Shown here: positions 644 to 28,169 of the stretch, one piece after another
How the letters are laid out: each line of letters opens with the position of its first letter
Numbering within the stretch: position 1 is the first letter of the stretch
Assembly (NCBI GenBank): GCA_949155365.1
Contig: CASCUT010000011.1
Location: 1 to 48,308, forward strand
Source of the DNA: an uncultured Clostridia bacterium
Lineage (GTDB): Bacteria; Bacillota; Clostridia; TANB77; CAG-508
Direction: 5' to 3'
Length of the DNA stretch: 48,308 nucleotides
Program-made: the position numbers and the translations under genes
Notes under the pieces: model-generated
What the model was told of the DNA's origin: nothing
What the model saw: only the letters and a program-made list of their open reading frames with translations
The model's database searches: none

Positions 644-2629
644 CTATTTCCTTTTGAAACAATTTGCTGTACTTCCTGGTGCTGGACTACCTTTTTTTAC
701 TAATTTTATTTGGATTCCCTCTAGTCGATAGCTATAGCCTTGTGAACCTGCTTCTTGACCATTTTTCGCCCAGCCCATCCAGCCGAAGTTTTCACAATGT
801 ACACGATAGTAAACATCATATTCGTTTGCAATTTCGCCTGTTAATTTTATTTTAATTGCTTCTAAACGTAATGATTGATGCGATGTTCCTGCATCTTGCC
901 CATTTTGTTTCCAACCTTGCCATCCTATATTTTGTACATGGGTACTATATTCAATTCCTCCTGGATTTCCATTGTTTTGTAATTGTATTCTAATTGCTTC
1001 TAATCGTAGATGCTTATGTTCTGTTCCACTCATTGCTCCATTTGATACTGCTCCTTGCCATCCCACATTTTGTACATGAGTAGCATACGAAATAGATGGT
1101 GTATTTTTTACAAAGTGTCTCGTGGTGCTTCCTGGTGCGGAACTACCTTTTTTTACTAGTTTAATTTGGATTGCCTCTAATCGGTAACTATAACCTTGTG
1201 TTCCTGCGCTCTCTCCATTTTTTGCCCAATCTAGCCATCCAAAGTTTTCTGCATGTACTCGGTAATATACGTCATAATAGTTTGCAATATCTCCTGTTAG
1301 TATTATTTCAATTGCTTCTAATCGTAAGCTTTTATGCTCTGTTCCATTCATGACATTATTTCCAGTAAAAGGTAACCATCCATAATTTTGCACATGAGTT
1401 CTATACTCAATTCCACCTGCATAGTCACTATCCAATTTTATTTTGATTCCTTCTAGTCTTAAATGCTTATGCTCTGTTCCTGCTGTCGCTCCATTGGATA
1501 CATAGCTTTGCCATCCTACATTTTGTACATGTGTTGTATATTGTACATTTACTTTTTTAGTTGGTTCTGTTACTGTTACATTACATGTTTTGGTTTTTCC
1601 CGTACTTGTTTTAACTGTTATTGTTGCAGTTCCTACTCCATTTGCTGTTACTTTTCCAGAAGAACTTACTGTAGCAACAGAAGTATTACTACTTGACCAT
1701 GTTAATGTTTTACTATCTGTTGTATTCGTAGGATTTATGGTTGCTTTTAGAGTATACGTATTGTTTTTATACATACTTACACTTGTGGTGTTTAAGGATA
1801 CACTTGTAATTGGTTCTACACTAAATTTTGCTCCAAGACCTCCACCATCTGAGCCTAATCCATCTTTGCTAACAGTATGTACATAAGCATAATATTCTCC
1901 TTTAGGCATTGTAAATGTAGCACTTGTACTTGTCGTAGTAACTGCTTTTATTCTATTCCAATTCCCATTTTGTACATCAGTTGCATAGTAGATAACCACA
2001 TCATAATGGTCTGCATTGCTCACTCTGTCAAATGTAACTTTTACACTTGTTCCTCCTAAATTAGTTACTTTAATATTAGAAGGTGCATCTGGTTTGATTG
2101 CAGATAATGTTTTTACATTATTTCCAGAAGCATGTGCAATGTATACTAATTTACTTTGTAAATATGATTTTGTAGTTGTTTGATTCCATCTAACATGACC
2201 TGCTCCATCTCCATTTGCATCAGTAAAATATACAGTATCTCCTACTACATCTTGTACAATAATTGTATGTTCTCCATAAGGATCATTATTATATCGAACT
2301 AAATCTCCTACACATACATTGTTCATGTCATATACTCTTCCTGAACACATAGCACATTGTTCAAATAGCCAGTCAAATAAATTAATTCCATAGCCATGAC
2401 ATTGCCATCCTGCATGACCAGAACCACAATAATCAGAATACCATCCGCCATCATTCCATTTGTAGTAATCTCCTGCTCGATATCCTTCCATGTTTTTTAT
2501 TTCATTAAACTTGTTTCTTAAGTGTTCTGCTGTATAAGTTGTAGCTTCTACTTTTCCTGATAGTAGTAATAGGCTTGCTATTAATATTACAATCAATAGT
2601 AAAGTTTTAATAATTGATTTACTTTTCAC
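644..2629 (-). CDS. Secreted CHAP-like hydrolase with FN3, Big2 and six ChW repeats
   Basis: A 661-residue exported protein. Residues 1-29 form a signal peptide ending GKVEA. Residues 45-170 look like a CHAP/NlpC-type cysteine peptidase or amidase: candidate Cys77 (WQCHGYG), His121 (GEHTIIV) and Asp137 (YFTDANG). An FN3-like domain (about 179-272) and a Big2 domain (about 273-353) follow. Six clostridial hydrophobic W repeats run from about 362 to the end, each with a T/V-H-x-Q/E-N-x-GW core and an RLE(A/G)I motif. They form two sets of three, and each third repeat ends in a VKKGS linker. The start codon is GTG at 2629 (AAATTT follows GGGGGG upstream as the ribosome site), not ATG. The protein probably cleaves peptidoglycan peptide bonds while the ChW block holds it to the wall. 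The active-site call is by motif only. It is the last gene of the unit and is followed by a terminator. Confidence -1.
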   Translation of the reverse strand: MKSKSIIKTLLLIVILIASLLLLSGKVEATTYTAEHLRNKFNEIKNMEGYRAGDYYKWNDGGWYSDYCGSGHAGWQCHGYGINLFDWLFEQCAMCSGRVYDMNNVCVGDLVRYNNDPYGEHTIIVQDVVGDTVYFTDANGDGAGHVRWNQTTTKSYLQSKLVYIAHASGNNVKTLSAIKPDAPSNIKVTNLGGTSVKVTFDRVSNADHYDVVIYYATDVQNGNWNRIKAVTTTSTSATFTMPKGEYYAYVHTVSKDGLGSDGGGLGAKFSVEPITSVSLNTTSVSMYKNNTYTLKATINPTNTTDSKTLTWSSSNTSVATVSSSGKVTANGVGTATITVKTSTGKTKTCNVTVTEPTKKVNVQYTTHVQNVGWQSYVSNGATAGTEHKHLRLEGIKIKLDSDYAGGIEYRTHVQNYGWLPFTGNNVMNGTEHKSLRLEAIEIILTGDIANYYDVYYRVHAENFGWLDWAKNGESAGTQGYSYRLEAIQIKLVKKGSSAPGSTTRHFVKNTPSISYATHVQNVGWQGAVSNGAMSGTEHKHLRLEAIRIQLQNNGNPGGIEYSTHVQNIGWQGWKQNGQDAGTSHQSLRLEAIKIKLTGEIANEYDVYYRVHCENFGWMGWAKNGQEAGSQGYSYRLEGIQIKLVKKGSPAPGSTANCFKRK

Positions 2630-2696
2630 AAAAATTCCCCCCTTTATTTTATTCTTTTAAAATTTTATCACAAAGTTCTTTTTTAGTCTATAAAAA

Positions 2697-4340
2697 TTAG
2701 TATATTTTATAACAAATATCTCTATCCACACTTCCATCAATACCCGAACTTGTTCCTGTATCAGTATATTGCCACATGGTGTAGTTACCTGTATAATTTG
2801 ATGGTTTTTCTAGTGGATTTTCTTGTGTAGCACCTGTATAGTGTGCTAGCCATAAGTCGTAGCTTGATAGTTTTGCCATATCTAAATTATTCAGTGCAAA
2901 ATTCTTTCCTGTATATAGCATTGGTTTGTATCCTGCCTTTTTAATTCTTTCACAAAAGGCTTGTACTATTTTTGTTCTTTCTTCTTTGCTTAAACTATCT
3001 GCCCTACCAGTATGGTTACTATTAGCATATTCTACATCTATTGCAACTGGATAGGTAATTTTGTAGTTCTTTATACAGTTGATGGTGAATTCAGCTTCTT
3101 CGATTGCTTCTTGCTCTGTTTTCGCTTGTGAGAAGAAGTAAATACCTACTGGAATATTTTCTTTTAATGCATTGGTAATATTATATTCAAAAGAGTCATC
3201 TTTGACAATTTTTCCGTCAATTCCATCACTCGATACTCCATATCCTCTAAATCCTACTCTTATCATAGCAAAGTCAATTCCATCTTTTTTTACTGCTTGC
3301 CAATCAATGACACCTTGTTGATTTGCTACATCTATTCCATGTAAGACTTTTCCTGTTGTCTCAGTATTGTTCTTTTTTGTCAATTTTATTTCAATCGCCT
3401 CTAGTCTTAATTTTTGTCCTGTTGTTCCTGCCATTTCCCCATTTTTCTTCCAAGATTGCCATCCTATATTTTGTATGTATGCTCGATATTCTACATCATA
3501 TTCTTTTTGTAAATTTCCATTTAATTTTATTTCAATTGCCTCTAGTCTTTGCTCTTTTCCTGTTGTTCCTGCCGTTTCCCCATTTTTCTTCCAAGATTGC
3601 CATCCTATATTTTCTACATGGGTTCGATATTGAATAGAACCTCCTAAGTAATTCGATTCTAAATTAATTTGAATTGCTTCCATTCGATAACTTTTGTGCA
3701 TGGTTCCCGCAGTTTGCGCTTGTTCTCTTTTCCCTTGCCAACCAATATATTGAACATGGGCATTATATACTGCTCTTGTTGGCGCTTGTTTAAATGGTGA
3801 TTTGGTCGCCCCTGGTGCATTGGTTCCTTTTCGTACTAATTTGATTTCAATTGCCTCTAATCGATAACTATAACCTGCACTTCCTGCTTCTTCTCCATTT
3901 TTAGCCCAATCTAACCATCCAAAGTTTTGTGCATGTACTCGGTAGTATATATCATAATAATTGGCAATATTTCCTGTTAATCTAATTTTAATAGCTTCTA
4001 ATCTCAAACTTCTTCCTGTGGTTCCTGCCATCGCATCATTTTTTACAAAGTTTTGCCATCCTATATTTTGCACATGAGTTGCGTATTCAATGTCCCCTCC
4101 ATAAGGATTATTCTCTATTTTTATTTTAATTCCCTCTAGTCTTAAACTTTGATGTGTTGTTCCTGCTGTTTGTCCATCTTTTACATAGTTTTGCCATCTT
4201 ACGTTTTGTACATGGGTAGAATAAGAAACACTTGGTTCTACTCCTGCATAAGAATAAGATTCCATCACGATAAGATTGGTTAGGATACTAATTCCTATTA
4301 TGAAGAAAATTAAAATAATTCTTCTACTTTTCTCTTTCAT
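2697..4340 (-). CDS. GH25 lysozyme (muramidase) with six N-terminal ChW repeats
   Basis: A 547-residue secreted enzyme. The signal peptide covers about residues 1-32, six ChW repeats cover about 36-322, and a C-terminal GH25 domain runs from about 334 to the end. The GH25 signature is complete: Asp337 in HGIDVA, and the catalytic Asp435-x-Glu437 pair in AIDVEYA, followed by MLYTG, LWLAHY and MWQYTDTG. GH25 enzymes cut the MurNAc-GlcNAc bond of peptidoglycan. The ChW repeats are laid out in the same two-by-three pattern as in the next gene downstream, which points to a shared wall target. ATG at 4340 follows AAGGGG at good spacing. It starts only 18 bases after the flippase gene with no terminator between, so it is probably co-transcribed with polysaccharide line A. 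Confidence -1.
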   Translation of the reverse strand: MKEKSRRIILIFFIIGISILTNLIVMESYSYAGVEPSVSYSTHVQNVRWQNYVKDGQTAGTTHQSLRLEGIKIKIENNPYGGDIEYATHVQNIGWQNFVKNDAMAGTTGRSLRLEAIKIRLTGNIANYYDIYYRVHAQNFGWLDWAKNGEEAGSAGYSYRLEAIEIKLVRKGTNAPGATKSPFKQAPTRAVYNAHVQYIGWQGKREQAQTAGTMHKSYRMEAIQINLESNYLGGSIQYRTHVENIGWQSWKKNGETAGTTGKEQRLEAIEIKLNGNLQKEYDVEYRAYIQNIGWQSWKKNGEMAGTTGQKLRLEAIEIKLTKKNNTETTGKVLHGIDVANQQGVIDWQAVKKDGIDFAMIRVGFRGYGVSSDGIDGKIVKDDSFEYNITNALKENIPVGIYFFSQAKTEQEAIEEAEFTINCIKNYKITYPVAIDVEYANSNHTGRADSLSKEERTKIVQAFCERIKKAGYKPMLYTGKNFALNNLDMAKLSSYDLWLAHYTGATQENPLEKPSNYTGNYTMWQYTDTGTSSGIDGSVDRDICYKIY

Positions 4341-9275: not shown

Positions 9276-10268
9276 TCATTCTTTTTCAAACATTGATTTT
9301 TCTGGTAACAATTGTTCAAACATTTGAATTAACTCTTTTTTTACCTTTTCAAAATGAATTTCTTCATTCGAGTCATTAATACATACCATTTTATATTTGT
9401 GATTTATGATATCTTTCATAAATTGTATATTTTCATTTTCTAAATTTCGGTATCCATATTGTTTCATACTAGTAGGAATAAAGTTTCCAGTAACCAAATT
9501 CCAATAACGAAATACCCAGTGACTACAGTCTTCTTTTGTTCTAAATTTATGTGTTGTTGTTTCAAATAGTGTTTTCTGTTCTAAGTCCCACAAAGTATCC
9601 ATTGTACTTTTTAAATGCGAAATCGGAATATGTGGATTTAACATTCCTGTATAATATTTCCAAGGAGTTAATAATAAATTTCTAATATTACTAGTTCCAT
9701 ATTTTAGGTGAAATAAATTCGATTTTTTTACTTCATTTTTAGGAATGTGTTTTGCAATGATTTCTAGATTGTTTAAAATAGTATGCTCTATGATATTGTT
9801 TGAGTCTTTTACTGATACAGCATTAAAAATAAGAGCATCTTTTGGTTTTCCTTTTTCAAAAAAATCCTCTTTTTCGACTGGACTTACTAAAAACATATCA
9901 TCGTTAAAGTATACAAATTTTTCTTCCAATTCTGGTATTTTATGTAGATATAGTTCGATGGCATTGGAGTTATAGGTAGGAAGCACTTCTTTTGGCATAA
10001 AATCTGTATGCTTCACAAATTTCAATTTTGGATGTTCTAAATTTAGCCATTCTGGTACATGTCCACAAGTTACAAAAAAAATCTGATTCACCCAAGGTGC
10101 ATATTGTTCTATTGCTCGAAACCAATATTTTGTAATTTCCCAGTCTCGATAGCGAATTATTGCATTTGACTCATCGTCTTTTATTTTGTTGTATTTACTT
10201 TTTTCTTGTTGCCACTCTTTATCATTCCCATCTACCCAAGTTACAACAAAATCTATTTTCTCTTCCAT
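9276..10268 (-). CDS. Stealth family phosphotransferase (line A copy)
   Basis: A 330-residue protein with the four Stealth blocks: IDFVVTWVDGND at residues 5-16, then RYRDWEITKYWFRAIEQYAPW with FFVTCGHVPEWL, then NSNAIELYLHKIPEL with FVYFNDDMFL, and finally HKFRTKEDCSHWVFRYW. Characterised Stealth proteins transfer hexose-1-phosphate to make phosphodiester links in capsules. Line A may therefore include a sugar-phosphate linkage. The start codon directly abuts the previous stop (TAAATG), and the gene overlaps the long upstream extension of the GT11 frame but not its chosen start. A second Stealth gene lies at 27162-28169. Confidence -1.
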   Translation of the reverse strand: MEEKIDFVVTWVDGNDKEWQQEKSKYNKIKDDESNAIIRYRDWEITKYWFRAIEQYAPWVNQIFFVTCGHVPEWLNLEHPKLKFVKHTDFMPKEVLPTYNSNAIELYLHKIPELEEKFVYFNDDMFLVSPVEKEDFFEKGKPKDALIFNAVSVKDSNNIIEHTILNNLEIIAKHIPKNEVKKSNLFHLKYGTSNIRNLLLTPWKYYTGMLNPHIPISHLKSTMDTLWDLEQKTLFETTTHKFRTKEDCSHWVFRYWNLVTGNFIPTSMKQYGYRNLENENIQFMKDIINHKYKMVCINDSNEEIHFEKVKKELIQMFEQLLPEKSMFEKE

Positions 10269-13012: not shown

Positions 13013-14089
13013 TTATTGATAACCTGTTTTTTTAATAATTTGATTACTTATTGTTTTTACCTTTTGCGTTGGTGTATAATCCTCTTCTCCAAATAATTCT
13101 TTATGCATTTTTGATACATTTTTCTCTAAGTTTACTGGTACTCCATACCATCTGTCTAACGTAATTCCTTTTACTTCATATGGCCATCCAATACTATCTG
13201 TAATTTTATAATTTAATGCATCTGGCACCATTCCAATAATACTTCCCGATGAAATATTGGTATATACTTTTGGTAAAACGGTATCTAAGAAGTTATTAAT
13301 TTCACCAATGCTCTTTGTTTTTAATTTATCTACCATTGCCATAATAACTGTTCTCATACGTTCTGTTCTTTTATAGTCTCCCCCCGCAGTATAACGGATT
13401 CTTGAATACGCTACTGCTTGTATTCCGTCTAATGTTTGTTTTCCTGCTTTTGTTACATTCTTCGAACGAATTCCCGTGCTTGCAGAAGTTGCTCCTATAT
13501 ATTCATTAATGTATTTTAATTCTTCATTTGTAACATTTATTTCGACTCCGCCTAACGCATTTACCGCCTCTGCTACTACATCAAAGTTTACTGTTACAAA
13601 TTCTTTAATGTTTAAGTCTAAGTTTGTATTTAAAGTACTAATCGCAAGTGGAGCTTCTCCATAAGAATAAGCATGTGTTATTTTATCTAGTCCGTGTCCT
13701 TCTATTTGTACATATGTATCACGATAAACAGATAATAATTTTACTTCTTTTGTTTTGTTATTAATACTTGCAATGATAATACAATCGCTTCGATTTCCTT
13801 TTCCTAAATCGTTTGCTCTACTATCTACACCAAAAATAGCAATATTGCGGTATTGTGATAAATTTTCTGCCACTTCATTATTAATATCTAATTCTTCTTC
13901 ATCAATTGTTACTTGTTGCATTTTTCCTAATTTATCTGTCATATACCAATATCCACCTGCTACTACTCCTGCTATTATCAAAATGAATACTAGCAAAATA
14001 ATTCCTACTATTTTAAGTCCTTTTCTTTTCTTTTTTCCTTGTCTCTTTTGACTTTCTATTCTTCTACCACTAGCATGTTTTCCTGCCAT
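13013..14089 (-). CDS. LytR-CpsA-Psr (LCP) family glycopolymer ligase 1
   Basis: A 358-residue protein. It has a basic N-terminus with one membrane helix (about residues 27-49), then an extracytoplasmic LCP domain. Characteristic elements are NIAIFGVDSRA, NRSDCIIIASIN, LLSVYRDTYV, DKITHAYSYG, VNFDVVAEAVNALGGVEI, and YSRIRYTAGGDYKRTERMRTV. The arginines and aspartates of these motifs bind the pyrophosphate of lipid-linked polymers. LCP enzymes move such polymers from undecaprenyl pyrophosphate onto peptidoglycan, so this gene is the likely attachment step for line A and/or line B. GGAGGAG precedes the ATG. It has its own terminator, so it is a separate unit from the paralogue upstream. Confidence -1.
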   Translation of the reverse strand: MAGKHASGRRIESQKRQGKKKRKGLKIVGIILLVFILIIAGVVAGGYWYMTDKLGKMQQVTIDEEELDINNEVAENLSQYRNIAIFGVDSRANDLGKGNRSDCIIIASINNKTKEVKLLSVYRDTYVQIEGHGLDKITHAYSYGEAPLAISTLNTNLDLNIKEFVTVNFDVVAEAVNALGGVEINVTNEELKYINEYIGATSASTGIRSKNVTKAGKQTLDGIQAVAYSRIRYTAGGDYKRTERMRTVIMAMVDKLKTKSIGEINNFLDTVLPKVYTNISSGSIIGMVPDALNYKITDSIGWPYEVKGITLDRWYGVPVNLEKNVSKMHKELFGEEDYTPTQKVKTISNQIIKKTGYQ

Positions 14090-14246: not shown

Positions 14247-15257
14247 TTATTGATATCCTGTTTTCTTGATAATTTTATTACTAATTTCCTTTACTTTGGC
14301 AGATGGTTCATAATTTTCTTCGTCAAATAATTCTTGGTGTAGTTTGACAACATTTTCTTCTAATGTTACTGGTGCTCCATACCAAGTTGGTGTCGTGTAG
14401 GCTCTTACTTTATATGGCCATCCGATACTATTTGTAATTTTATATGTTGCTACTTTTGGTGCCAATGATAAAATTTCTGTTTTTTGGATATTAGTTCTTA
14501 TATGTGGTAATACCGTATCAATCAAATTATTTATTTGTTTGATATTTAATGTTTTTACTTTATTAAAAATAGCGGTTAATACCTCTCTCATGCGTTCGGT
14601 TCGTTTATAGTCTGTATCAATTTTTCGAATTCTAGCATAAGCTAATGCTTGATCTCCCATTAAATTGTAGGTTCCTGCTGAAGTGATATTAGGAATGCTT
14701 TTTGCCTCTGCATCGGTTACTGTCATTTGTATTCCACCAATTGCATTTACTACAGTTCGAACTGTTTCGAAATTTACTGTTACATATTCTGTGATATTTA
14801 AGTCTAAATTCGTATTTAATGTACTTAAGGTAAGTTTTGGCCCTCCATAAGCATATGCATGAGTTATTTTGTCTAAACTTCTATCGGTTAACTCTAAATA
14901 AGTATCACGATAAACCGAAAGTAAACGTACTTCATTTGTTTTTTGGTTGATGCTAACAATCATAATACAGTCGCTTCTTGTACCATCGAAAGTATCTGCT
15001 CTTGCATCTAGTCCAAGTAGTGCAATATTTCGATAAGTCTCCAGTTGTTCTTCTACTCCTGCATTTACTTCTATTTCTTCTGCTGGTAAATCATCATAAT
15101 CGATTTTAGATAATTTATTATTTACATATTGTATTCCAAGTATCCCAATTCCTGCTATTAAAACAATTAAAATTAATATAATAATTGCTATTATTTTTAA
15201 TACTTTTCCTTTTTTCTTTGTTGCTTCTTCTATTGTTTTCCTTTGTCTTCTTGCCAT
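14247..15257 (-). CDS. LytR-CpsA-Psr (LCP) family glycopolymer ligase 2
   Basis: A 336-residue paralogue of the next LCP gene, ending in the same IIKKTGYQ. One membrane helix (about residues 20-45) anchors the LCP domain outside the cell. Motifs: NIALLGLDARADTF, GTRSDCIMIVSIN, LLSVYRDTYL, DKITHAYAYGGPK, and YARIRKIDTDYKRTERMREV. It would attach undecaprenyl-linked glycopolymers to peptidoglycan. Tandem LCP copies commonly overlap in function, and here two copies could serve two polymers, which is an inference. A good GGAGGA site precedes ATG at 15257. The leader holds an extended -10 candidate with a palindrome upstream. Confidence -1.
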   Translation of the reverse strand: MARRQRKTIEEATKKKGKVLKIIAIIILILIVLIAGIGILGIQYVNNKLSKIDYDDLPAEEIEVNAGVEEQLETYRNIALLGLDARADTFDGTRSDCIMIVSINQKTNEVRLLSVYRDTYLELTDRSLDKITHAYAYGGPKLTLSTLNTNLDLNITEYVTVNFETVRTVVNAIGGIQMTVTDAEAKSIPNITSAGTYNLMGDQALAYARIRKIDTDYKRTERMREVLTAIFNKVKTLNIKQINNLIDTVLPHIRTNIQKTEILSLAPKVATYKITNSIGWPYKVRAYTTPTWYGAPVTLEENVVKLHQELFDEENYEPSAKVKEISNKIIKKTGYQ

Positions 15258-15902: not shown

Positions 15903-16673
15903 TTAGTGAAATATTTTAGAAAAGAATGTTGTTTTAACTGGTATTGGGTTTTCTATTTCTATTGTTTGACCTGTTATGATTTGTTCTGGGTAATTGGTAG
16001 TTAAGTCTTCTGCTTTTTGTTTTCCTACTATTTTTGTTATTTCTTGTAGTGCTTCTTGCATCCTTTTATAAATGGTATTTGGTCTATGTACATCTGAGCC
16101 TAACAAATGTACCATATTATGTTCTAACATTTTCTTAATTGTTTTTTGACTTTCTTTTCCATATTGTCCGATAATACTTCCATAGTTTGATTGGATTAAG
16201 ACTCCTTCTTCTATTAAAGGTAGTAATTGGTTTGGATCTTTTTGTACAAATGGATATCTTTCTGGATGTGCTAAAATAGGAATTCTTCCTTTTTCTAAAA
16301 TTTGATACACTACTTCTGTTAGGTTCATAGTCTCTGCATTTAATGGTAGTTCAAATAATACATATTGTTTGTTATTTAAGGTACTTGCTTTCTCTTTTTC
16401 TAGTAATTCATTTATTTGATCTGTAATATAAATTTCATTGCCTTGTAATATTTCAATAGAACAATTTACTTTTTTCAATTCTTCTTTTATTGTTCCGATT
16501 CGGTTTTCTATTTCTTTTTTGTCTTTTTCATAGTATCCTTCTATATAGTGTGGCGTTACTATTATTTTTTCAAAGCCTTCTTTTTTTGCCTCTTCTAATA
16601 TTTTTATCGATTGTTCTAAACTTTTGGCACCGTCATCGACTTCAAATATAATATGGGAATGTATATCTATCAT
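15903..16673 (-). CDS. cpsB: CpsB/YwqE-type protein-tyrosine phosphatase (PHP domain)
   Basis: A 256-residue metal-dependent phosphatase. The open frame starts further upstream, but ATG at 16673 has AAGGAAGAG at good distance and gives MIDIHSHIIFEVDDGAKS, the standard family start with the first metal-binding histidines. Later metal ligands appear in VTPHYIEGYY, QGNEIYIT, PILAHPERYPFV and LLGSDVHRP. CpsB removes phosphate from the tyrosine tail of the CpsD kinase and so tunes capsule chain length and amount. It is the last gene of the CpsC-CpsD-CpsB operon, 55 bases after the kinase gene. Confidence -1.
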   Translation of the reverse strand: MIDIHSHIIFEVDDGAKSLEQSIKILEEAKKEGFEKIIVTPHYIEGYYEKDKKEIENRIGTIKEELKKVNCSIEILQGNEIYITDQINELLEKEKASTLNNKQYVLFELPLNAETMNLTEVVYQILEKGRIPILAHPERYPFVQKDPNQLLPLIEEGVLIQSNYGSIIGQYGKESQKTIKKMLEHNMVHLLGSDVHRPNTIYKRMQEALQEITKIVGKQKAEDLTTNYPEQIITGQTIEIENPIPVKTTFFSKIFH

Positions 16674-16728
16674 GCTTTTCTCTTCCTTTTCTATTTTTCT
16701 TAGCAATGTCATCTGTTTTTTATTTTAC

Positions 16729-17628
16729 TTATTGTTTTTCCTTTTCTAAGGTATCATCATCTTCTTTTTCAAAGTCAAAAATAGTAGATGTTCTTGGTTT
16801 GTTTTCTATTTCCCTATTTTGTTTTAGAATTTCGCCAGTTTTTGCTTTTATTTCTTCTTTTTTTCGTTCTATTTTTAGTTCTTCTTCTTTGGCAATTTGG
16901 TGTCTAGTAGTAGTTCTTCTTCTGTCTTTCATCGTCATACTACCATAATAGTAAGAATCATAGTACTCTTTTTGACTAATTGGCACTTTGTTAATAACAA
17001 CACCTGCAATTTTCCCTCCTACATTTTCAATATCTTTTTTTATTTTTTCTAATGCATCCATTTTGGTCTGTTTGTAGGAAGTTACAATCATTGTAGTGTC
17101 TACATAGCGTGATATAATGATGGCATCGGTTACTAAATTACTTGGAGTTCCATCAAATATAATTAAATCAAATACCTTTTGTAAGGATATAATGGCTTCC
17201 ATCATTTGGTCAGATACTAAAAGCTCAGATGGGTTTGGTGGAATGTTTCCTGCTGGTATTAAGTAAAGATTTTTTACTTCTGTTTCTTTTACATAAGACA
17301 TAATATTAGGATCACTATCTTCTCCTTTTGAGTTAATTCCAGATAAATAGTTAGAAAGTCCTGGGGTAGGTGATACTCCGAAAATAGAAAATTGTCTTCC
17401 TTTTCTCATATCTGAATCAATTAACACTACTTTTTTTCCTGCTTGTGCAAAAGTAACTGCTAGGTTTGCTGTTACCCAACTTTTCCCTTCTGATGGTGAG
17501 GTACTAGTAACTACGATTGATTTTAGTCCTTTTTTTGTGTTCATAAATTGGATGTTTGTTCTTAATGTTCTAAATACTTCTGATACTGGAGATTTTGGCT
17601 CTTTAAAGGTAATAATTTCTTTTTTCAT
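16729..17628 (-). CDS. cpsD: CpsD-type bacterial tyrosine kinase (BY-kinase)
   Basis: A 299-residue cytoplasmic P-loop kinase. Walker A is at residues 43-51 (STSPSEGKSW), with Trp following the GKS. Walker A' is at about 67-78 (VVLIDSDMRKGR) and Walker B at about 155-162 (LIIFDGTP). A tyrosine cluster (EYYDSYYYG, about 221-229) is the expected autophosphorylation site. Unlike most family members, the tyrosines are not at the end: about 70 charged residues (rich in E and K) follow. CpsD partners with membrane protein CpsC, whose gene overlaps it by one base (TAATG), and is reversed by CpsB. Together they control polymer length and export. Confidence -1.
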   Translation of the reverse strand: MKKEIITFKEPKSPVSEVFRTLRTNIQFMNTKKGLKSIVVTSTSPSEGKSWVTANLAVTFAQAGKKVVLIDSDMRKGRQFSIFGVSPTPGLSNYLSGINSKGEDSDPNIMSYVKETEVKNLYLIPAGNIPPNPSELLVSDQMMEAIISLQKVFDLIIFDGTPSNLVTDAIIISRYVDTTMIVTSYKQTKMDALEKIKKDIENVGGKIAGVVINKVPISQKEYYDSYYYGSMTMKDRRRTTTRHQIAKEEELKIERKKEEIKAKTGEILKQNREIENKPRTSTIFDFEKEDDDTLEKEKQ

Positions 17629-18341
17629 TATCTTCTGCCTCCTTTGGTTGCTTTTAAAATATAATCAAAATCACATAATGGAATGGTGGTTAATACGGAT
17701 AATCCTAGTCGTTTTTCGATGTCTTCTTTTGATTTTACAGTTGTGTCTAGCATGTTGGCAACTAGTACATAAATACTGGATACTACTATTCCAATAAACG
17801 CAAATATGATTAGGTCTTTTCCATGGTTGATATTATATGGTGTGTTCTGTACTTCTGCTTTGTCCCATACTTGGACATTGTTAATGTGATATACACCATT
17901 TGCTACTTTGTCGATAAATACATTGGCTACTTCACTTGCTATCATTTTAGCTGTTTCTGGGTCTTTGTCTGTTACTCTAATTTGAATTAGGTCTGTGTCT
18001 TTTACTGCACTTACAGTGATGTGACTTTTTAATGAAGTTTCTGTTTTATCTAGTTGTAGATGGTTTATTACATCACTTAAAATGGTTTTACTTCTAATTA
18101 ACTCACTATAAGTTGATACTAATTTTTGGTTTAGTGTTAAGTCTGTTGTTGTAATAGTTTCTTCTTGTTTTGTTGTTGAGGATTGTGCCAAAATAATAGT
18201 AGTAATGGATTGATAATCTGGTTTTACAAATATGTAACTATAGATAATACCTATCACGATAAAAATTGCTGTAATAATCATAATATAGATTTTTCTACTC
18301 CAAAATATGTTAAATAATTCTTTTAAATCTAACTCTTCCAT
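17628..18341 (-). CDS. cpsC: CpsC-type polysaccharide co-polymerase / kinase activator (Wzz domain)
   Basis: A 237-residue protein with two membrane helices (about 17-39 and 176-196) flanking an extracytoplasmic region, the layout of Wzz/CpsC chain-length regulators. The N-terminus (MEELDLKELFNIFWSRK) is typical, and the short cytoplasmic tail after the second helix (DTTVKSKEDIEKRLGLSVL) is the part that docks and activates the BY-kinase. It is the first gene of the CpsC-CpsD-CpsB operon behind promoter 18374-18402, with GGGAGAG before the ATG. Confidence -1.
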   Translation of the reverse strand: MEELDLKELFNIFWSRKIYIMIITAIFIVIGIIYSYIFVKPDYQSITTIILAQSSTTKQEETITTTDLTLNQKLVSTYSELIRSKTILSDVINHLQLDKTETSLKSHITVSAVKDTDLIQIRVTDKDPETAKMIASEVANVFIDKVANGVYHINNVQVWDKAEVQNTPYNINHGKDLIIFAFIGIVVSSIYVLVANMLDTTVKSKEDIEKRLGLSVLTTIPLCDFDYILKATKGGRR

Positions 18342-18472: not shown

Positions 18473-19207
18473 TTATTTTAAAGGAATTGAATGATATTTT
18501 TTATACCCTATTATACTACATATCACAATTGCTATTACTGTAATGATTCCTATTGGCGTTGTTCCTGTTTGTGGAATACGTGTTTGTGCTTTTGTTTTAT
18601 CTTCTGTTGTTTCTTTATTTGTTGTTTGTGTATTTGGTTGTTTTGTTCCTGTTGTAGTATCAATTTTTGGTACATCTGGTTTTTTCTCTGGTTCTGTTTT
18701 ATCATTTGTATCTGGTATTTTGTCTGGTGTTGTTTCTTCTTCGTTGTAAGGAAAATGATATGTAATTATTTTTTCTTCTGTTTTATCGTTATCTCCATCC
18801 GAAAAGGCCAAGTTTTTGATTGCAACTTCTGTTGTCTTTGCTGTTATATTACTTTTTAATTTCAACGTGATTTGTGCTATTTTAGTGCCTTTTTTGGCCG
18901 CTGTTGTAGTGGACATAAATTTGTTTGTTGTTTTATCATAATTTATAGCATCCCAGTCATTTAATGCTGTTATTGTAACTGTTTCAAATATGTTTTTATC
19001 ATATTCTAGTTTTCCCTCATAACCTAAAATGCCATCTCCTTCATAGTCTTCTAGAGTAATGTCTATTTTAACTAGTTCTTGTGTTTTTACTATTTCTTGT
19101 TTTTCTGTACTTATCGCTATTTTCCAGTTTGGAACAGTTGCATAACAATTTATTGATATTAACAATATTGCTAATAATAATATAATTCCTACTTTTACTT
19201 TTTTCAT
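18473..19207 (-). CDS. Sortase-anchored surface protein with cohesin-like domain
   Basis: A 244-residue exported protein. The long frame begins upstream, but ATG at 19207 has AAGGAG nine bases before it and opens a clean signal peptide (about residues 1-23, ending NCYA). Residues 25-155 resemble a cohesin fold: VKIDITLEDYEGDGILGYEG, LEYDKNIFETVTI, and IAQITLKLKSN followed by an AFSDGD element. A Thr/Pro/Lys-rich stalk follows. The end is a wall-sorting signal: IPQTG, a hydrophobic stretch, and the basic YKKYHSIPLK tail. Cohesins bind dockerins through calcium, and the next gene upstream encodes a dockerin. The likely role is to hold that partner on the wall. No sortase gene is in the window. 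The cohesin call is by pattern and needs a profile search. Confidence -1.
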   Translation of the reverse strand: MKKVKVGIILLLAILLISINCYATVPNWKIAISTEKQEIVKTQELVKIDITLEDYEGDGILGYEGKLEYDKNIFETVTITALNDWDAINYDKTTNKFMSTTTAAKKGTKIAQITLKLKSNITAKTTEVAIKNLAFSDGDNDKTEEKIITYHFPYNEEETTPDKIPDTNDKTEPEKKPDVPKIDTTTGTKQPNTQTTNKETTEDKTKAQTRIPQTGTTPIGIITVIAIVICSIIGYKKYHSIPLK

Positions 19208-19252
19208 TTGCTTTTTCTCCTTTTTCTTATTGTTGTTTTTACATATTAAAAT

Positions 19253-19279
19253 ATTATACATATTCGTATTTTTTGTCAA
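19253..19279 (-). promoter_or_regulatory. Promoter of the cohesin-like gene
   Basis: On the minus strand TTGACA (19274-19279), 15 bases, TATAAT (19253-19258). The spacer is two bases short of ideal; TAATAT two bases on would give 17. The inverted repeat at 19286-19299 lies exactly 6 bases upstream of the -35 box. Confidence -1.
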
Positions 19280-19285
19280 TAATTG

Positions 19286-19299
19286 TTACAAAAATGTAA
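19286..19299. promoter_or_regulatory. 14-bp inverted repeat shared with the dockerin gene promoter
   Basis: TTACAAAAATGTAA, a perfect 5-base inverted repeat around AAAA, 6 bases upstream of the -35 box. The identical 14-mer occurs at 22175-22188 at the same distance from the other gene's -35 box. It is a likely binding site for a shared regulator. Confidence -1.
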
Positions 19300-19338
19300 T
19301 GTAGAAAATATATTGTCGTAATATTCGTTTTTTATATA

Positions 19339-19373
19339 AATAAAGAATAATTAACTAGTAATTATTCTTTATT
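19339..19373 (-). terminator. Terminator of the dockerin protein gene
   Basis: Perfect 15-base arms (19339-19353 and 19359-19373) with a 5-base loop. On the minus strand the second arm runs into TTTATATAAAAAA. It follows the stop at 19410 and separates the two genes of the cohesin/dockerin pair. Confidence -1.
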
Positions 19374-19409
19374 GTTTCCTATTATTTTTTGATTTTTTCT
19401 CTTGCTGTT

Positions 19410-22082
19410 TTAAGTACTAATTGTCATTCTTATCATTAGCATAACATCTTTGATATCTATTTTTCCGTCACTATTTATATCTCCTGCCATTCTCTTTTCC
19501 TGTGTTATTTCTGTTTTTGAAATGATATGACGTTTTACTTGCATAATATCTGTTATGTTTGTTTTTCCATCTCCTGATAAATCTCCTTTTACAATTAAAG
19601 TATAGATTTGGTTGTTAATTTGTATTTTATCGCCTGTTTTTAGTATTTCATTTTCTCCTATTTCTTTATTTTCGTGATATATTTTAAGTTTCATATTTAA
19701 TGTTGCATTCTTTAAAAATTGTTGTTTTGTTGTAGTTGGTGAAATTCCTAAAATGTATTTTTCTTTTACTTTATATTGTGTTATGTTTTCTATTTTATCT
19801 GGATATTGTATTTCGAAAGAAATATTGGTTTTGTTTCCCGCTTTATCCATTGCTTCTATTTGATATTTACCTTCTTTTGTTAATTGAGTATTTATTTTAT
19901 AATCTTCCATTATTTTCCCATTGTAACGTAGTGTAACCGATTGCAAATTTTCGTCTTCTACTTTTGGAGTCACATTTTTCTCATAAATTTTGTTTTGTTC
20001 TATTCCAGTAATAGTAGGCGGTTTCTTATCTATTTTTACTTCATATTGATCTTGTATGGTATTTCCAGCACTGTCTATTGAAGTAACAATAATGTGATAA
20101 TTCCCTGTTTCTTTTAGCGTTGTTTCTTTTTCTTCAATTGCTTGTCCATTTATTTGTATTTCATTTTGTATTTTGTCTTTTGTTTCTAATTTTAATGATA
20201 TGTTTTGATTGGTTAATTCTCCATTTATATATTCTATGTTGTTTTCTGTTTTCATTTGTAGTCTTGGTCTATTTGGAATATCGATTTGTATTTTAACATT
20301 TGAAAGTTCTTCAAAATCTTGATAAAATGCTTTTATTGCTTTTTGCGTATTTATTTCATAATCCTTTACTATTATTTCCTGCGGTAATTCATATCCTGCT
20401 TGTTTTAAATTCCCTTCTTCGTTTCCAGTATAAATGGTATCATTATAAAAAATGTATATATTTTCATTTGTTTTATTACTATCCTGTATTTGTAAACCAT
20501 CAATATAAATATTGGGAATTACGGTTTCATATCCATAATTGTGTGGCTTCCCCTCTTCTTCGTATATCACTTTATGTGCAATAATCCTATTAGCTTTATT
20601 GCTATTTTGATATTGACAGTTTTCAATTTGAATATTACCATCCCAAGTACTTCCATAATCTGAACGTAATTCAACAAAAGAACTTCCACCTATTTTAGTA
20701 GTATTAAGTATTTTCAGCTTTCCAGTTCCATTAAGCGTTATTCCTTTTACCCCTATTGTGCAATCTTCTATTGTTAAATTATGAACTCCGCAATGTGCAT
20801 CTATTCTATTTAGTATACAATTTTTGTAAGTAATATCTTTTGTATAATTTGTTCCTGTAATTCCCCACCTATCTCCTTTTTCTATATTGTCACATGTTAC
20901 TTTATTTAATAGAATATTAGTGGAATGTTCTAAAATCAAATCATAATTAGATGCCTTTTCATATTTATGTGCCACTAATTTACATTCTTGCAATTCTACA
21001 TCCGACACATAGGAAATCCTTAAAAAACCCAAATAAGGTCCACCTAAATTATTTTCATTATCTAATGTATGATTAATATTTTTCAAGATGGTATTACTTC
21101 TGGTACATCTAATATTTCTATTCCAATATCCAGAAGTTTGTTCATATTGATTTTTATCTAAATTTGTTTGAAAATTTCCATTTTGTATTAATATTTGTTC
21201 TTCTGGAATTGCTACTAGCTTTATACTTGTAATCTGTTCGAAATCCCATTTTATATCATTTAATATATTTCCTTCATTGTCTATTCGAAATACATCTTCT
21301 TGCGATGCACCAACATTTTGATTCGTGCCACTTCTTATAAATTGCTTTTTGTTCTCATTATATATAATACATAAGCAATTTCCATATCCTTTTAACTGTT
21401 CTATTTTTTGGGTTTTCTTTGCTAATTTAATTTGAGATAATATAGCCTCATCTGTTATTGTAATACTACTTTGGGTGGGACTTATTTCAAATAATGCATA
21501 ATTTTTTGAATCATAATTTATAATTTCTTCATCATGTATTATAAATTTCGCTCCATTCCAATCTGTATTTGTTTTAATATAAATTGGTTTTGTACTATTT
21601 ACCCCATATATGTGGTATTCATTTAAAGTGGCTCTTACTTGATAGTTGTTTTGATTTGCTATCTCATGTGTTTCTTTTATAATAGCATAACAATCTTCTC
21701 CATTTTGTACATTACCAACATCTTCATAAGTTATATATTTCACCTTTGTTTCACTATCAATATGTGGCTTTATTTTTTTTATTTCTTCTTGTCCTATTCT
21801 TTGTATATTAGTGTTAGTTGTCTCTGCTTCAGCTGTTTCAATTGAAAATGTATCAATATTTTTATTGTTCTTCTCTTCTATATTGTTTTTGTTCCCATAT
21901 TCTTCATTTACTTCCATTATATCTAATTGATAATCATCTTCTTGCATTCTGTCACTTACTCTTTTTTCTATTGTAATTTTCTCACTTTTTAAACAATTTA
22001 ATGTCAAGCATATAATTGCTATTGTAATACATAATACAATAAAGGCTCTCGCTCGATAATTTCGTTTTACTTTTCTTTTCAT
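19410..22082 (-). CDS. Exported beta-helix protein with Ig-like domains and C-terminal type I dockerin
   Basis: An 890-residue protein. ATG at 22082, preceded by GAAAGGG, gives MKRKVKRNYR and then a membrane or signal segment (about residues 12-32). A region of about 380-540 repeats short N- and I-rich strands (LTIEDCTIGVKGITLNG, LKILNTTKIGG, IQIENCQYQN), the look of a right-handed parallel beta-helix as in polysaccharide lyases and glycan-binding proteins. Ig-like units follow; one begins KKPPTITGIEQNKIYEK, and DKAGNKT marks its end. The last 60 residues form a dockerin with two calcium loops, DLSGDGKTNITD and DINSDGKIDIKD, each with the key D/N/D residues. The partner is probably the cohesin-like protein. 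No catalytic residues could be assigned, so enzyme activity is unproven. Confidence -1.
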   Translation of the reverse strand: MKRKVKRNYRARAFIVLCITIAIICLTLNCLKSEKITIEKRVSDRMQEDDYQLDIMEVNEEYGNKNNIEEKNNKNIDTFSIETAEAETTNTNIQRIGQEEIKKIKPHIDSETKVKYITYEDVGNVQNGEDCYAIIKETHEIANQNNYQVRATLNEYHIYGVNSTKPIYIKTNTDWNGAKFIIHDEEIINYDSKNYALFEISPTQSSITITDEAILSQIKLAKKTQKIEQLKGYGNCLCIIYNENKKQFIRSGTNQNVGASQEDVFRIDNEGNILNDIKWDFEQITSIKLVAIPEEQILIQNGNFQTNLDKNQYEQTSGYWNRNIRCTRSNTILKNINHTLDNENNLGGPYLGFLRISYVSDVELQECKLVAHKYEKASNYDLILEHSTNILLNKVTCDNIEKGDRWGITGTNYTKDITYKNCILNRIDAHCGVHNLTIEDCTIGVKGITLNGTGKLKILNTTKIGGSSFVELRSDYGSTWDGNIQIENCQYQNSNKANRIIAHKVIYEEEGKPHNYGYETVIPNIYIDGLQIQDSNKTNENIYIFYNDTIYTGNEEGNLKQAGYELPQEIIVKDYEINTQKAIKAFYQDFEELSNVKIQIDIPNRPRLQMKTENNIEYINGELTNQNISLKLETKDKIQNEIQINGQAIEEKETTLKETGNYHIIVTSIDSAGNTIQDQYEVKIDKKPPTITGIEQNKIYEKNVTPKVEDENLQSVTLRYNGKIMEDYKINTQLTKEGKYQIEAMDKAGNKTNISFEIQYPDKIENITQYKVKEKYILGISPTTTKQQFLKNATLNMKLKIYHENKEIGENEILKTGDKIQINNQIYTLIVKGDLSGDGKTNITDIMQVKRHIISKTEITQEKRMAGDINSDGKIDIKDVMLMIRMTIST

Positions 22083-22141
22083 CCGTACCCTTTCTTTTTT
22101 ATGGATTGTATTCATATTTATTACTTTTATATAACTTATAT

Positions 22142-22174: not shown

Positions 22175-22188
22175 TTACAAAAATGTAA
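22175..22188. promoter_or_regulatory. 14-bp inverted repeat (second copy)
   Basis: TTACAAAAATGTAA, identical to 19286-19299. The bases on either side differ between copies, so the match is confined to the inverted repeat and the spacing, as expected for a protein-binding site. Confidence -1.
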
Positions 22189-22223: not shown

Positions 22224-22258
22224 AAAAAAGAATAATTCTTTTTGAATTATTCTTTTTT
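22224..22258 (-). terminator. Terminator of polysaccharide line B
   Basis: Perfect 15-base arms (22224-22238 and 22244-22258) with a 5-base loop and six T at the end on the minus strand. It begins directly after the UDP-glucose dehydrogenase stop codon. Confidence -1.
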
Positions 22259-22259
22259 G

Positions 22260-23426
22260 TTAATCTCTACTATATACATCTCTTGTATACACTTTGTCTT
22301 TTACTTTTTCTAAAACATTCTCAAATCTATTTGCTAAAATAACATCACTATAATCAGAAAATTCTTTAAAATCATTGATTACTTTGCACCCATTAAATTC
22401 TTCTACTTTTAATGTTGGTTCATAAATAATAATTTTAATATCTTCTTTCTTTAATCTTTCAATAATACCTTGGATAGCACTTGCTCTAAAGTTATCCGAG
22501 TCCATCTTCATGGTTAATCTATAGATTCCAACAACCTCTGGATTTTTTTTCATAATCATTTTTGTTATATGTTTTTTTCTTGTACCATTGGATCTCACAA
22601 TTGCTCTAATTAAATTTTGTGGCACATGATCATAATTAGCTAATAATTGTTTCGTATCCTTTGGTAAACAATATCCACCATATCCAAAAGATGGATTATT
22701 GTAATGGTCCCCTATTCTTGGATCTAATCCAACGCCTTCTATAATATCTTTTGAAACTAATCCTTTTATTTCAGCATATGTATCTAGCTCGTTGAAATAA
22801 GCAACTCGTAAAGCCAAATATGTATTAGCAAATAATTTTACTGCCTCTGCTTCTGTACTGTCCATAAATTTAACAACAATATCTTTTTTGACTGCACTTT
22901 CTTTTAGTAATTCTGCAAATTTTTCTGCCCTTTTACTTTTTTCTCCTACAATAATTCTAGATGGATATAAATTGTCATATAAAGCTTTTCCTTCTCTTAG
23001 AAATTCTGGAGAAAATAGAATATTGTCAATCTGATATTTTTCTTTCATATTTTTAACAAATCCAACTGGCACAGTTGACTTTACTACCATTGTTGTGTTT
23101 ATTTGCATGTTTTTTACTTTTTGAATAATATCTTCTACGCTTGAAGTATCAAAAAAATTCTTTTCATCATCGTAATTTGTTGGTGTACTTATAATAATAT
23201 ATTCTGCACCTTCAAAGGCTTCTTTATAATCTAAAGTTGCTTTTAAATTTAAGTTTTTTTCTTTAAAAAATTCTTCTATTTTTTCATCTTTAATAGGAGA
23301 CTTTCTTTGATTAATCATATCTACTTTTTCTGGTATAACATCTAACGCTATTACCTCATTGTTTTGACTCAATAATGTAGCTAAGGATAAGCCTACATAT
23401 CCTGTTCCTGCTATTGCTATTTTCAT
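22260..23426 (-). CDS. ugd: UDP-glucose 6-dehydrogenase
   Basis: A 388-residue enzyme that oxidises UDP-glucose to UDP-glucuronate with two NAD+. The N-terminal Rossmann motif is IAGTGYVGLS (residues 4-13). STPTNYD, KSTVPVGF and SPEFLREG are present. The catalytic cysteine is Cys253 in FGYGGYCLPKDTKQL. The length matches the short Gram-positive type used in capsule synthesis. It is the last gene of line B and overlaps the flippase by 4 bases (ATGA). Its presence suggests that line B contains a uronic acid. A UDP-N-acetyl sugar dehydrogenase is a possible alternative, but the length and motifs favour UDP-glucose. Confidence -1.
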   Translation of the reverse strand: MKIAIAGTGYVGLSLATLLSQNNEVIALDVIPEKVDMINQRKSPIKDEKIEEFFKEKNLNLKATLDYKEAFEGAEYIIISTPTNYDDEKNFFDTSSVEDIIQKVKNMQINTTMVVKSTVPVGFVKNMKEKYQIDNILFSPEFLREGKALYDNLYPSRIIVGEKSKRAEKFAELLKESAVKKDIVVKFMDSTEAEAVKLFANTYLALRVAYFNELDTYAEIKGLVSKDIIEGVGLDPRIGDHYNNPSFGYGGYCLPKDTKQLLANYDHVPQNLIRAIVRSNGTRKKHITKMIMKKNPEVVGIYRLTMKMDSDNFRASAIQGIIERLKKEDIKIIIYEPTLKVEEFNGCKVINDFKEFSDYSDVILANRFENVLEKVKDKVYTRDVYSRD

Positions 23427-27161: not shown

Positions 27162-28169
27162 TTATTGTTCATAATTGCTTTTTTCAGGTAATATTTTTTC
27201 AAAATTTTCTATTATTTTTCTTTTTACTTCTTCAAAATTCTCTATTTGTTCAGAATCTCCTAGTCCAAGAACTTTATATTTCTGTCTTCTTATTAATGTT
27301 GGAACTTTTTTATCATTAATTAAAATATTAATACCAAATTTTAAACTTTTTTGATGAAAATTCCCACTTGCAAATTGCCAATAATTGAACAACCAATGAT
27401 TTACATTTTGCTCATAGTTTCTAAATCTACTATGTATTGTATCATTTAGGATACTTTCTTCTTTACTCCATACTTCCTTAAATGTTGTTTTCAAATAACT
27501 TAATGGTAAATGAAAATTTGAAAAACCTACAAATTTGTTATATATAAAAAGTGGATATGTTTTTAATATATATCTTCTTTGTTTTAACGATACATATTTC
27601 CCAAAATTACGTTTTACTGATTGTTTAAAATTAAAATTTCTATTGATTATTTCCATATTATTTGAAACCGTTTTATAATGTTTTTGATTCGCTATTGGAA
27701 TTATGGAAGTAAATGCCATTGTATTACATGGCTTTCCTTTTTTGAAGAAATCCGTTGGTTTAACTTTCTTAGTAATAAATAGATCATCATTAAATAAAAC
27801 AAATTTTTCTTCCAATCCTTCAATTTTATGAATTAATAATTCTATTGCGTTTGAGTTAAAAGTCGGTAAGCAGTCTTTTGGCATATAATCCAAATGCTTT
27901 ACAATGTGTAATTTAGGATGATTTGTATTTAGCCATTTAGGAAGATGTCCACAGGTAATAAAGTGAATTTTATTTACCCATGGAGCAAATTTTTCTATTC
28001 CTCTAAACCAATACTGTAAATTATCCCAATCCCTATATCTAATTTCTCTTTTATCTATATTTTCTTCTGATGTATTAGTATTTTGTTCATATTTTTCTTT
28101 CTCTTTTCTCCAATTTTCATCATTTCCATCTACCCATAATATAACAAAATCTATCTTTTCATTTTCCAT
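27162..28169 (-). CDS. Stealth family phosphotransferase (line B copy)
   Basis: A 335-residue protein with all Stealth blocks: IDFVILWVDGNDENW, RYRDWDNLQYWFRGIEKFAPW with HFITCGHLPKWLN, NSNAIELLIHKIEGLEEKFVLFNDDLFI, and HSRFRNYEQNVNHWLFNYW. Known relatives transfer sugar phosphates to build phosphodiester-linked capsules. It resembles the line A copy block for block, yet differs between the blocks, so it is a paralogue rather than a recent duplicate. It follows the ATP-grasp gene after an 83-base gap that holds no clear hairpin. Confidence -1.
   Translation of the reverse strand: MENEKIDFVILWVDGNDENWRKEKEKYEQNTNTSEENIDKREIRYRDWDNLQYWFRGIEKFAPWVNKIHFITCGHLPKWLNTNHPKLHIVKHLDYMPKDCLPTFNSNAIELLIHKIEGLEEKFVLFNDDLFITKKVKPTDFFKKGKPCNTMAFTSIIPIANQKHYKTVSNNMEIINRNFNFKQSVKRNFGKYVSLKQRRYILKTYPLFIYNKFVGFSNFHLPLSYLKTTFKEVWSKEESILNDTIHSRFRNYEQNVNHWLFNYWQFASGNFHQKSLKFGINILINDKKVPTLIRRQKYKVLGLGDSEQIENFEEVKRKIIENFEKILPEKSNYEQ

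Follow-up and report, generated by a model that had tools for sequence, protein, structure and literature searches.

What does a cohesin-dockerin pair do inside a locus for capsule synthesis? Docking of this kind is known mainly from enzyme complexes that digest foreign glycans. In contig CASCUT010000011.1 of an uncultured Clostridia bacterium (assembly GCA_949155365.1, positions 1 to 48,308; this whole stretch is called the window here), docking would be linked to the making of the capsule, with a docked part similar to the proteins with which phages cut capsules. Two adjacent genes are concerned, one for a wall-anchor protein with a cohesin and one for a larger protein ending in a dockerin. 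The most likely reading, to which we give a probability of about 0.6, is that they form a wall-docked tailspike-type lyase trimming the cell's own capsule. This reading rests on the domains of the two proteins, the cohesin fold, homology to phage tail fibres and spikes, three residues that align with a catalytic triad, repeated occurrence in capsule loci, exchange of the head at the same site and a shared operator-like motif. The two genes and their parts are as follows.

18473..19207, minus strand: cohesin wall-anchor protein, 244 residues (sequence and profile search)
18740..19138, minus strand: cohesin domain, residues 24-156 by fold; the Pfam match spans 18767-19087
18563..18577, minus strand: IPQTG sorting motif, with a membrane helix and a basic tail after it
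19410..22115, minus strand: dockerin-bearing protein, 901 residues, with a signal/membrane helix, tailspike-like beta-helix head, Ig-like modules, X-like module and type I dockerin
20196..21827, minus strand: tailspike-like beta-helix head, taken here as residues 97-640, with homology over about 97-588
19791..20180, minus strand: Ig-like region, residues 646-775 (Big_13 and BiPBP_C, both under their Pfam cut-offs)
19590..19778, minus strand: X-like module (our own label), residues 780-842, preceding the dockerin
19428..19589, minus strand: type I dockerin (PF00404), residues 843-896, with two calcium loops

The product of the small gene would be secreted and linked by sortase to the wall through IPQTG, where it would display one cohesin. 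The product of the large gene would also be secreted, and its C-terminal dockerin would plug, in a calcium-dependent manner, into the cohesin encoded next door. The N-terminal beta-helix, acting as a tailspike-type polysaccharide lyase, would work just outside the wall, next to the proteins for chain length (Wzz) and wall attachment (LytR-CpsA-Psr), and there trim or release the cell's own capsule, which would contain uronic acid. The docked tool would be exchangeable, a plug-in head on a wall socket. We infer each of the four components, namely cohesin-dockerin binding, sortase anchoring, cutting by the head and the cell's own capsule as substrate.

The cohesin domain matches PF00963 with 35 bits against a cut-off of 24.1, and the structure model of the window cohesin has the nine-stranded cohesin fold. 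The solved cohesins nearest to it by fold are those of Clostridium perfringens (2vo8, 2jh2 and 2w1n). The protein has the layout of a sortase-anchored protein, with a signal peptide, an LPxTG-like motif, a membrane helix and a basic tail, and the genome provides eight sortase matches over the cut-off, including two pieces of one broken gene. The dockerin matches PF00404 with 44.9 bits against a cut-off of 22.9 (49.1 bits in the whole-genome search) and contains two F-hand calcium-loop repeats, both with D1/S,N3/D5/D12. The dockerin protein is 890 residues long if translation begins at the ATG at 22082. Its residues 687-775 are common to other surface proteins of the genus, and its most widely shared part within the genus is the X-like module with the dockerin. 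The first-pass annotation had proposed a wall-anchor protein with a cohesin and an IPQTG signal, adjoining a gene whose product ends in a two-loop type I dockerin, and all of this is borne out by the matches given here; the cohesin fold at residues 25-155, on which it had made its proposal depend, is predicted.

The head is homologous to phage tail fibres and spikes. It matches phrog_23059, annotated as a tail fiber protein, with an E-value of 1.4e-34 over residues 97-556, and 105 of 50,697 phage records match the dockerin protein, the best being Bacillus phage SPO1L5 (tblastn E 7e-35, 27.8% over residues 118-588). The structure 8x8m is matched by the protein with an E-value of 7e-5 and by a profile of seven bacterial relatives with 6e-11. 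The protein in 8X8M is K64-ORF41, which cleaves the Klebsiella K64 capsule as a lyase and whose catalytic residues Tyr528, His574 and Arg628 are confirmed; BAQ02780.1 (K64-1 S2-5) is a validated K64 depolymerase (PMC11652154). The triad was mapped to the window head through BAQ02780.1 (L150), with one constant offset for the three residues, and falls by alignment on three codons.

20943..20945, minus strand: Tyr391, aligned with catalytic Tyr528 of K64-ORF41
20793..20795, minus strand: His441, aligned with catalytic His574
20664..20666, minus strand: Arg484, aligned with catalytic Arg628

The window head combines, in this way, the homologous beta-helix and the Tyr/His/Arg of a tailspike-type polysaccharide lyase of the K64-ORF41 kind. 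Among 18 aligned heads, Tyr391 and Arg484 are kept in all 18 and His441 in 16, the histidine being replaced in the phage proteins Adastra and CampHawk. A scan of genome contigs with the 901-residue protein found no relative; nor did scans of viral contigs with the head and two profiles, a third profile finding three relatives there, and a plasmid search gave no match. A prophage remnant was considered and rejected, as the head and dockerin lie among capsule genes and the protein has Ig-like modules and a dockerin at its end; inspection by eye, without a prophage tool, revealed no phage genes around it.

The lack of the histidine in Adastra and CampHawk indicates that the fold exists without the full triad, and the head could accordingly be a non-cutting glycan binder, either a wall-docked lectin holding the capsule near the wall or an adhesin. 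The other dockerin proteins of the genome point the same way, being adhesin-like rather than enzymatic (BspA leucine-rich repeats (LRR), SH3, NPCBM/discoidin, Big_2). This alternative is rather unlikely; against it stands the conservation of all three triad residues in 8/8 bacterial heads, at a typical pairwise identity of 40-52%. It also draws on a comparison of the same site within the genus. Of the 27 genus genomes, 13 have the window-type Wzz, at 14 places in all, and the region upstream of wzz is readable at 13 places (G021 is omitted, as its contig ends just upstream). A dockerin/cohesin pair lies just 5' of wzz at five of these 13 places (the window, G006, G020, G010 and G004; in G010 and G004 one additional gene separates it from wzz) and is absent at eight. 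In the four genomes other than the window's, the head is an LRR protein with a dockerin, which has no enzyme family match at E <= 1e-3. The comparison thus shows that the dockerin genes of three relatives and the window pair share the site, the tail and the anchor but not the head. Two genomes show the LRR-dockerin gene broken in an identical way into two open pieces (L085:7547-9188 and L086:7003-8644), which makes a sequencing error improbable. By eye, a flavoredoxin-like gene lies between the cohesin gene and wzz in G010 and G004 (listed at L085:10311-10820, L086:9776-10285 and L087:7832-8455).

Is the adjacent cohesin the partner of the dockerin? The genome of the window (1.86 Mb in 72 contigs) contains seven cohesin matches, six of them over the cut-off, and eight over-cut-off dockerin matches. 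The dockerin protein could hence dock elsewhere, for instance into another cohesin of the genome, the adjacent cohesin having a different partner. Two further observations speak for this: in G137 and G055 the head and dockerin occur in a capsule locus without an adjacent cohesin, and the dockerin nearest to that of the window by whole-domain distance is of the other, non-capsule type, by a small margin (0.50 vs 0.52). Docking elsewhere is nonetheless unlikely in view of the way in which the pairs are inherited. Among 37 genomes (the window's own, 23 of the genus and 13 of the order), cohesins are present in 26 and dockerins in 32. A dockerin lies within 5 kb in another frame (one differing in length or strand), always on the same strand, for 57 of the 77 cohesin rows used, 20 being without one, at a chance expectation of about 4%; the 77 come from 107 rows, 30 with frames over 460 residues having been left out. 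There are 37 close pairs. The dockerin gene lies upstream in 33 of them, at a distance of 12-388 nt from the cohesin gene, and in 18 the cohesin protein ends in a sorting motif.

Within these pairs, cohesin distances follow dockerin distances with a Spearman coefficient of 0.589 over 29 pairs (four of the 37 were left out for having the dockerin on the other side and four for truncated dockerin matches), a value reached by 4/2000 within-genome and 0/2000 free shuffles. After four near-identical pairs are dropped, the coefficient over 25 pairs is 0.572, reached by 53/3000 within-genome shuffles, eight of which are the true pairing, and by 0/3000 free ones. The correlated distances fit inheritance as matched units and are no proof of binding. 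In a search of the genus with the C-terminal part, moreover, the capsule-locus pairs of G020, G006, G010 and G004 are among the best matches.

The pair of the window is not alone in its genome. The first-pass annotation had taken it for a minimal one-to-one pair peculiar to the locus, which does not hold, given the seven cohesin and eight dockerin matches and the recurrence of such neighbours across the genus. The domains found in its other dockerin proteins are transglutaminase/Ig, M26-N/GLUG, BspA LRR, Big_2, SH3 and NPCBM/discoidin. In one case (L026:1542-10536), a 2658-residue M26-N/GLUG protein with an N-terminal dockerin adjoins a 318-residue protein with both a cohesin and a dockerin, near one broken and one intact sortase gene. 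A cellulosome was considered and rejected. The seven cohesin matches lie in seven different frames, none of them with several cohesins, although cohesins too divergent for Pfam could escape; likewise, the six other dockerin proteins scanned have no cellulase or hemicellulase family at E <= 1e-3, and dockerins missed by Pfam are possible.

The link to the capsule is found in the genes around the pair, all identified by profile search, and in their counterparts elsewhere.

22260..23426, minus strand: UDP-glucose/nucleotide-sugar 6-dehydrogenase family, for uronic-acid supply (PF03721/PF00984/PF03720)
17628..18341, minus strand: Wzz chain-length protein (PF02706, 69.9 bits)
16729-17628, minus strand: CpsD-like kinase
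15903-16712, minus strand: CpsB phosphatase
13013-14089 and 14247-15257, minus strand: two LytR-CpsA-Psr family genes

A profile of the head has matches in 8 of 287 genomes of the order, namely the window's own, five from another genus of the same family and a single one from each of two further families, so that a lone oddity of this genome is ruled out by recurrence, as it is by that of the pairs in the genus. The head gene carries an over-cut-off dockerin in all seven other genomes, and in six of them it lies in a capsule locus, at wzz-cpsD-cpsB or a few genes away. It immediately precedes wzz in G137 and is two genes off in G055; a single cohesin-type gene separates it from wzz-cpsD-cpsB in G270 and G280; and in G237 and G046 a cohesin-type gene, a small gene, a sortase and another gene lie between it and wzz. 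A cohesin-type anchor gene hence adjoins the head gene in four of the six capsule-locus genomes, and these four companions as a group match the cohesin type of the window with an hhalign E-value of 1.1e-32.

The sortase genes inside the capsule loci of G237 (L166:6535-7155, 89.1 bits) and G046 (L167:13188-13808) were recognised, in the latter case, by position and sequence start. Although G237 and G046 belong to different families, their heads are 89% identical and their gene order is the same (L166, L167), which suggests that the capsule locus moved between the two lineages, likely as a whole. In G030 the head gene lies away from any wzz within the stretch seen. The gene after it (L170:3136-6600) matches the cohesin profile weakly (18.4 bits) and encodes three S-layer homology repeats, so that the anchoring method differs there while the gene arrangement stays. 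In three deposited assemblies the head-dockerin gene is split or stopped (L168:8399-11007, L169:8983-11530 and L170:127-3097).

Dehydrogenases of PF03721 supply uronic acids. Such a gene is present in 6/7 capsule loci with the head; in the comparison set, 2/12 genomes have one no further than about 17 kb from wzz (Fisher p 0.006). The genomes in this test are related, and several contigs of the comparison set are short. The association makes sense because a beta-eliminating lyase needs uronic acid. For the window dehydrogenase the best NCBIfam model, UDP-glucose 6-dehydrogenase, reaches 564 bits, under its cut-off of 757, while the subfamily NDP-sugDHase exceeds its own cut-off. A 341-residue sugar gene of G046 was considered as a glucuronate epimerase; NCBIfam left this unsettled and it was not counted. 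That the lyase is displayed for foreign glycans (diet, host mucus or the capsules of neighbours), with the capsule locus merely a convenient exchangeable site, is quite improbable in the face of the head's position at wzz-cpsD-cpsB in 6/7 other genomes of three families and of the uronic-acid genes in the same loci, even if enzymes displayed on cohesins usually target foreign glycans in the described cellulosomes, amylosome and mucinolysome and one head gene outside the order (L190) adjoins, by eye, a sugar-transport permease-like gene.

Elsewhere in the window, a Stealth-family protein, which we take to be of the capsule phosphotransferase type, is encoded in each of two glycan gene lines (9276-10268 and 27162-28169). 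Two surface proteins with ChW repeats, one of which also has a GH25 lysozyme-type domain, are encoded at the end of the capsule region (644-4340).

The two genes of the pair also appear to share a control element.

22175..22188, plus strand: TTACAAAAATGTAA, operator-like palindrome 5' of the dockerin gene (motif search)
19286..19299, plus strand: second copy of the TTACAAAAATGTAA palindrome, 5' of the cohesin gene (motif search)
19251..19279, minus strand: promoter-like TTGACA-N17-TAATAT of the cohesin gene (consensus scan only, which found 44 in the region against 34.7 expected)
19339..19373, no strand: perfect 15-bp inverted repeat between the dockerin and cohesin genes, AT-rich and terminator-like, not among the results of a G+C-based terminator scan
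22224..22258, no strand: perfect 15-bp inverted repeat between the dehydrogenase and dockerin genes

The exact 14-mer occurs four times in the genome, twice at the window pair. The arrangement TTACATTTYTGTAA-N6--35 is found 5' of all five dockerin genes of the genus and of the window cohesin gene, with TTACA-N4-TGTAA placed 6 nt ahead of TTGACA (TAGACA in one case) at these six genes. TTACA-N4-TGTAA is absent before four other cohesin genes of the genus and before 4/4 dockerin genes outside it; in two genomes, the motif-less cohesin gene of the genus starts 12-13 nt after the dockerin gene. The shared motif suggests joint regulation of the dockerin and cohesin genes. In the window's own genome, a similar-looking flavoredoxin-like gene ends beside a further copy of the operator-like motif.

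Besides the nearest neighbour of the window dockerin and the two capsule loci without an adjacent cohesin, several observations weigh against a wall-docked lyase for the cell's own capsule. The triad is also kept in phage proteins without demonstrated lyase activity. The cohesin-type companions in other genera remain under the Pfam cut-off (18.9, 19.6 and 22.3 bits), with no match in L169. Members of the head family from outside the order, found in 7 of 391 genomes of the class (L190-L196), lie by eye away from capsule loci. The dehydrogenase link is weak when presence anywhere in the genome is counted (6/7 vs 4/12, p 0.057), and G046 has the head and no PF03721 gene was found in it. Finally, the operator is no rarity in the window when up to two mismatches are allowed (3 copies vs 1.07 expected), own-genome stretches of 165 kb contain TTACA-N4-TGTAA five times, only two of these at the promoters of the window pair, and one operator copy, in L089, is apart from its pair.

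The earlier interpretation stands for the anchored cohesin beside a dockerin protein and for the capsule-acting head, and fails for the one-to-one peculiarity. The head probably acts on the cell's own capsule, as it had proposed, given the tail-spike homology, the conserved triad, the repeated placement in capsule loci and the nearby uronic-acid genes. A wider reading is tentative and may well be wrong. The capsule locus would hold a standard socket, formed by the wall cohesin and the X-like module/dockerin tail, which takes varied heads matched to the cell's own capsule type, a lyase where the capsule contains uronic acid and an LRR binder for the remaining types; this detachable tool, derived from a tailspike and controlled by calcium, would edit or hold the cell's own coat and move between species with the capsule genes. 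If a wall-docked capsule lyase is present, Gram-positive bacteria would have a means, located at the wall, of trimming or releasing the capsule that they make, one lyase active site would be common to phage-type spikes and bacterial capsule enzymes, and the loci would be a source of capsule-specific lyases and of naturally matched cohesin-dockerin pairs, both directly testable.

In the open-access literature, subscription journals being mostly outside this scope, no paper was found that joins cohesin-dockerin docking with a capsule locus or a tailspike-type enzyme. The closest cohesin folds belong to the glycosidases of C. perfringens, in which a pairwise cohesin-dockerin interaction replaces a repeat-bearing scaffold (PMC12997984). 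There, the cohesin is on the glycosidase itself, whereas the window has a separate wall-anchor protein and a tailspike-type partner in a capsule locus. Single-cohesin proteins that are cell-associated or LPxTG-anchored are already known, and the anchoring scaffoldins of cellulosomes and the mucinolysome ('nonSLH-anchoring', cSca5 of Limousia) combine a cohesin with an LPxTG-type anchor (PMC11557425, PMC12997984). The window protein shares this combination with them, but its dockerin partner is encoded next door. In contrast to scaffoldin systems, its genome has no multi-cohesin frame among its seven matches and no cellulase family in the six other dockerin proteins scanned.

The Klebsiella K64 depolymerases (K64-ORF41/8X8M and K64-1 S2-5/BAQ02780.1) have a homologous beta-helix and the same Tyr/His/Arg triad as the window head. 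They belong to phage virions, whereas the window protein is bacterial and secreted and also carries Ig-like modules and a dockerin. For the cutting of a producer's own polysaccharide, RbmB of Vibrio cholerae can be compared, a secreted protein of a Gram-negative bacterium that is not known to involve a cohesin or dockerin. It is a lyase for the matrix polysaccharide of its own producer (PMC11637428), and is likened to the proposed window lyase by description, not by sequence. WceF of Pantoea stewartii is a tailspike-like beta-helix enzyme encoded in the operon for the biosynthesis of its own substrate, and its loss lengthens the polysaccharide (PMC7949094). The window head is likened to it, again by description and not by sequence, as a tailspike-like beta-helix; its gene lies in the capsule locus in the window and in 6/7 other genomes, which would be the locus of its substrate if it acts on the cell's own capsule. 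WceF differs in being a Gram-negative, Tat-exported hydrolase without a dockerin. Each part of the system has its precedent, in the cohesins of C. perfringens and in WceF of Pantoea, and it is their combination that looks new.

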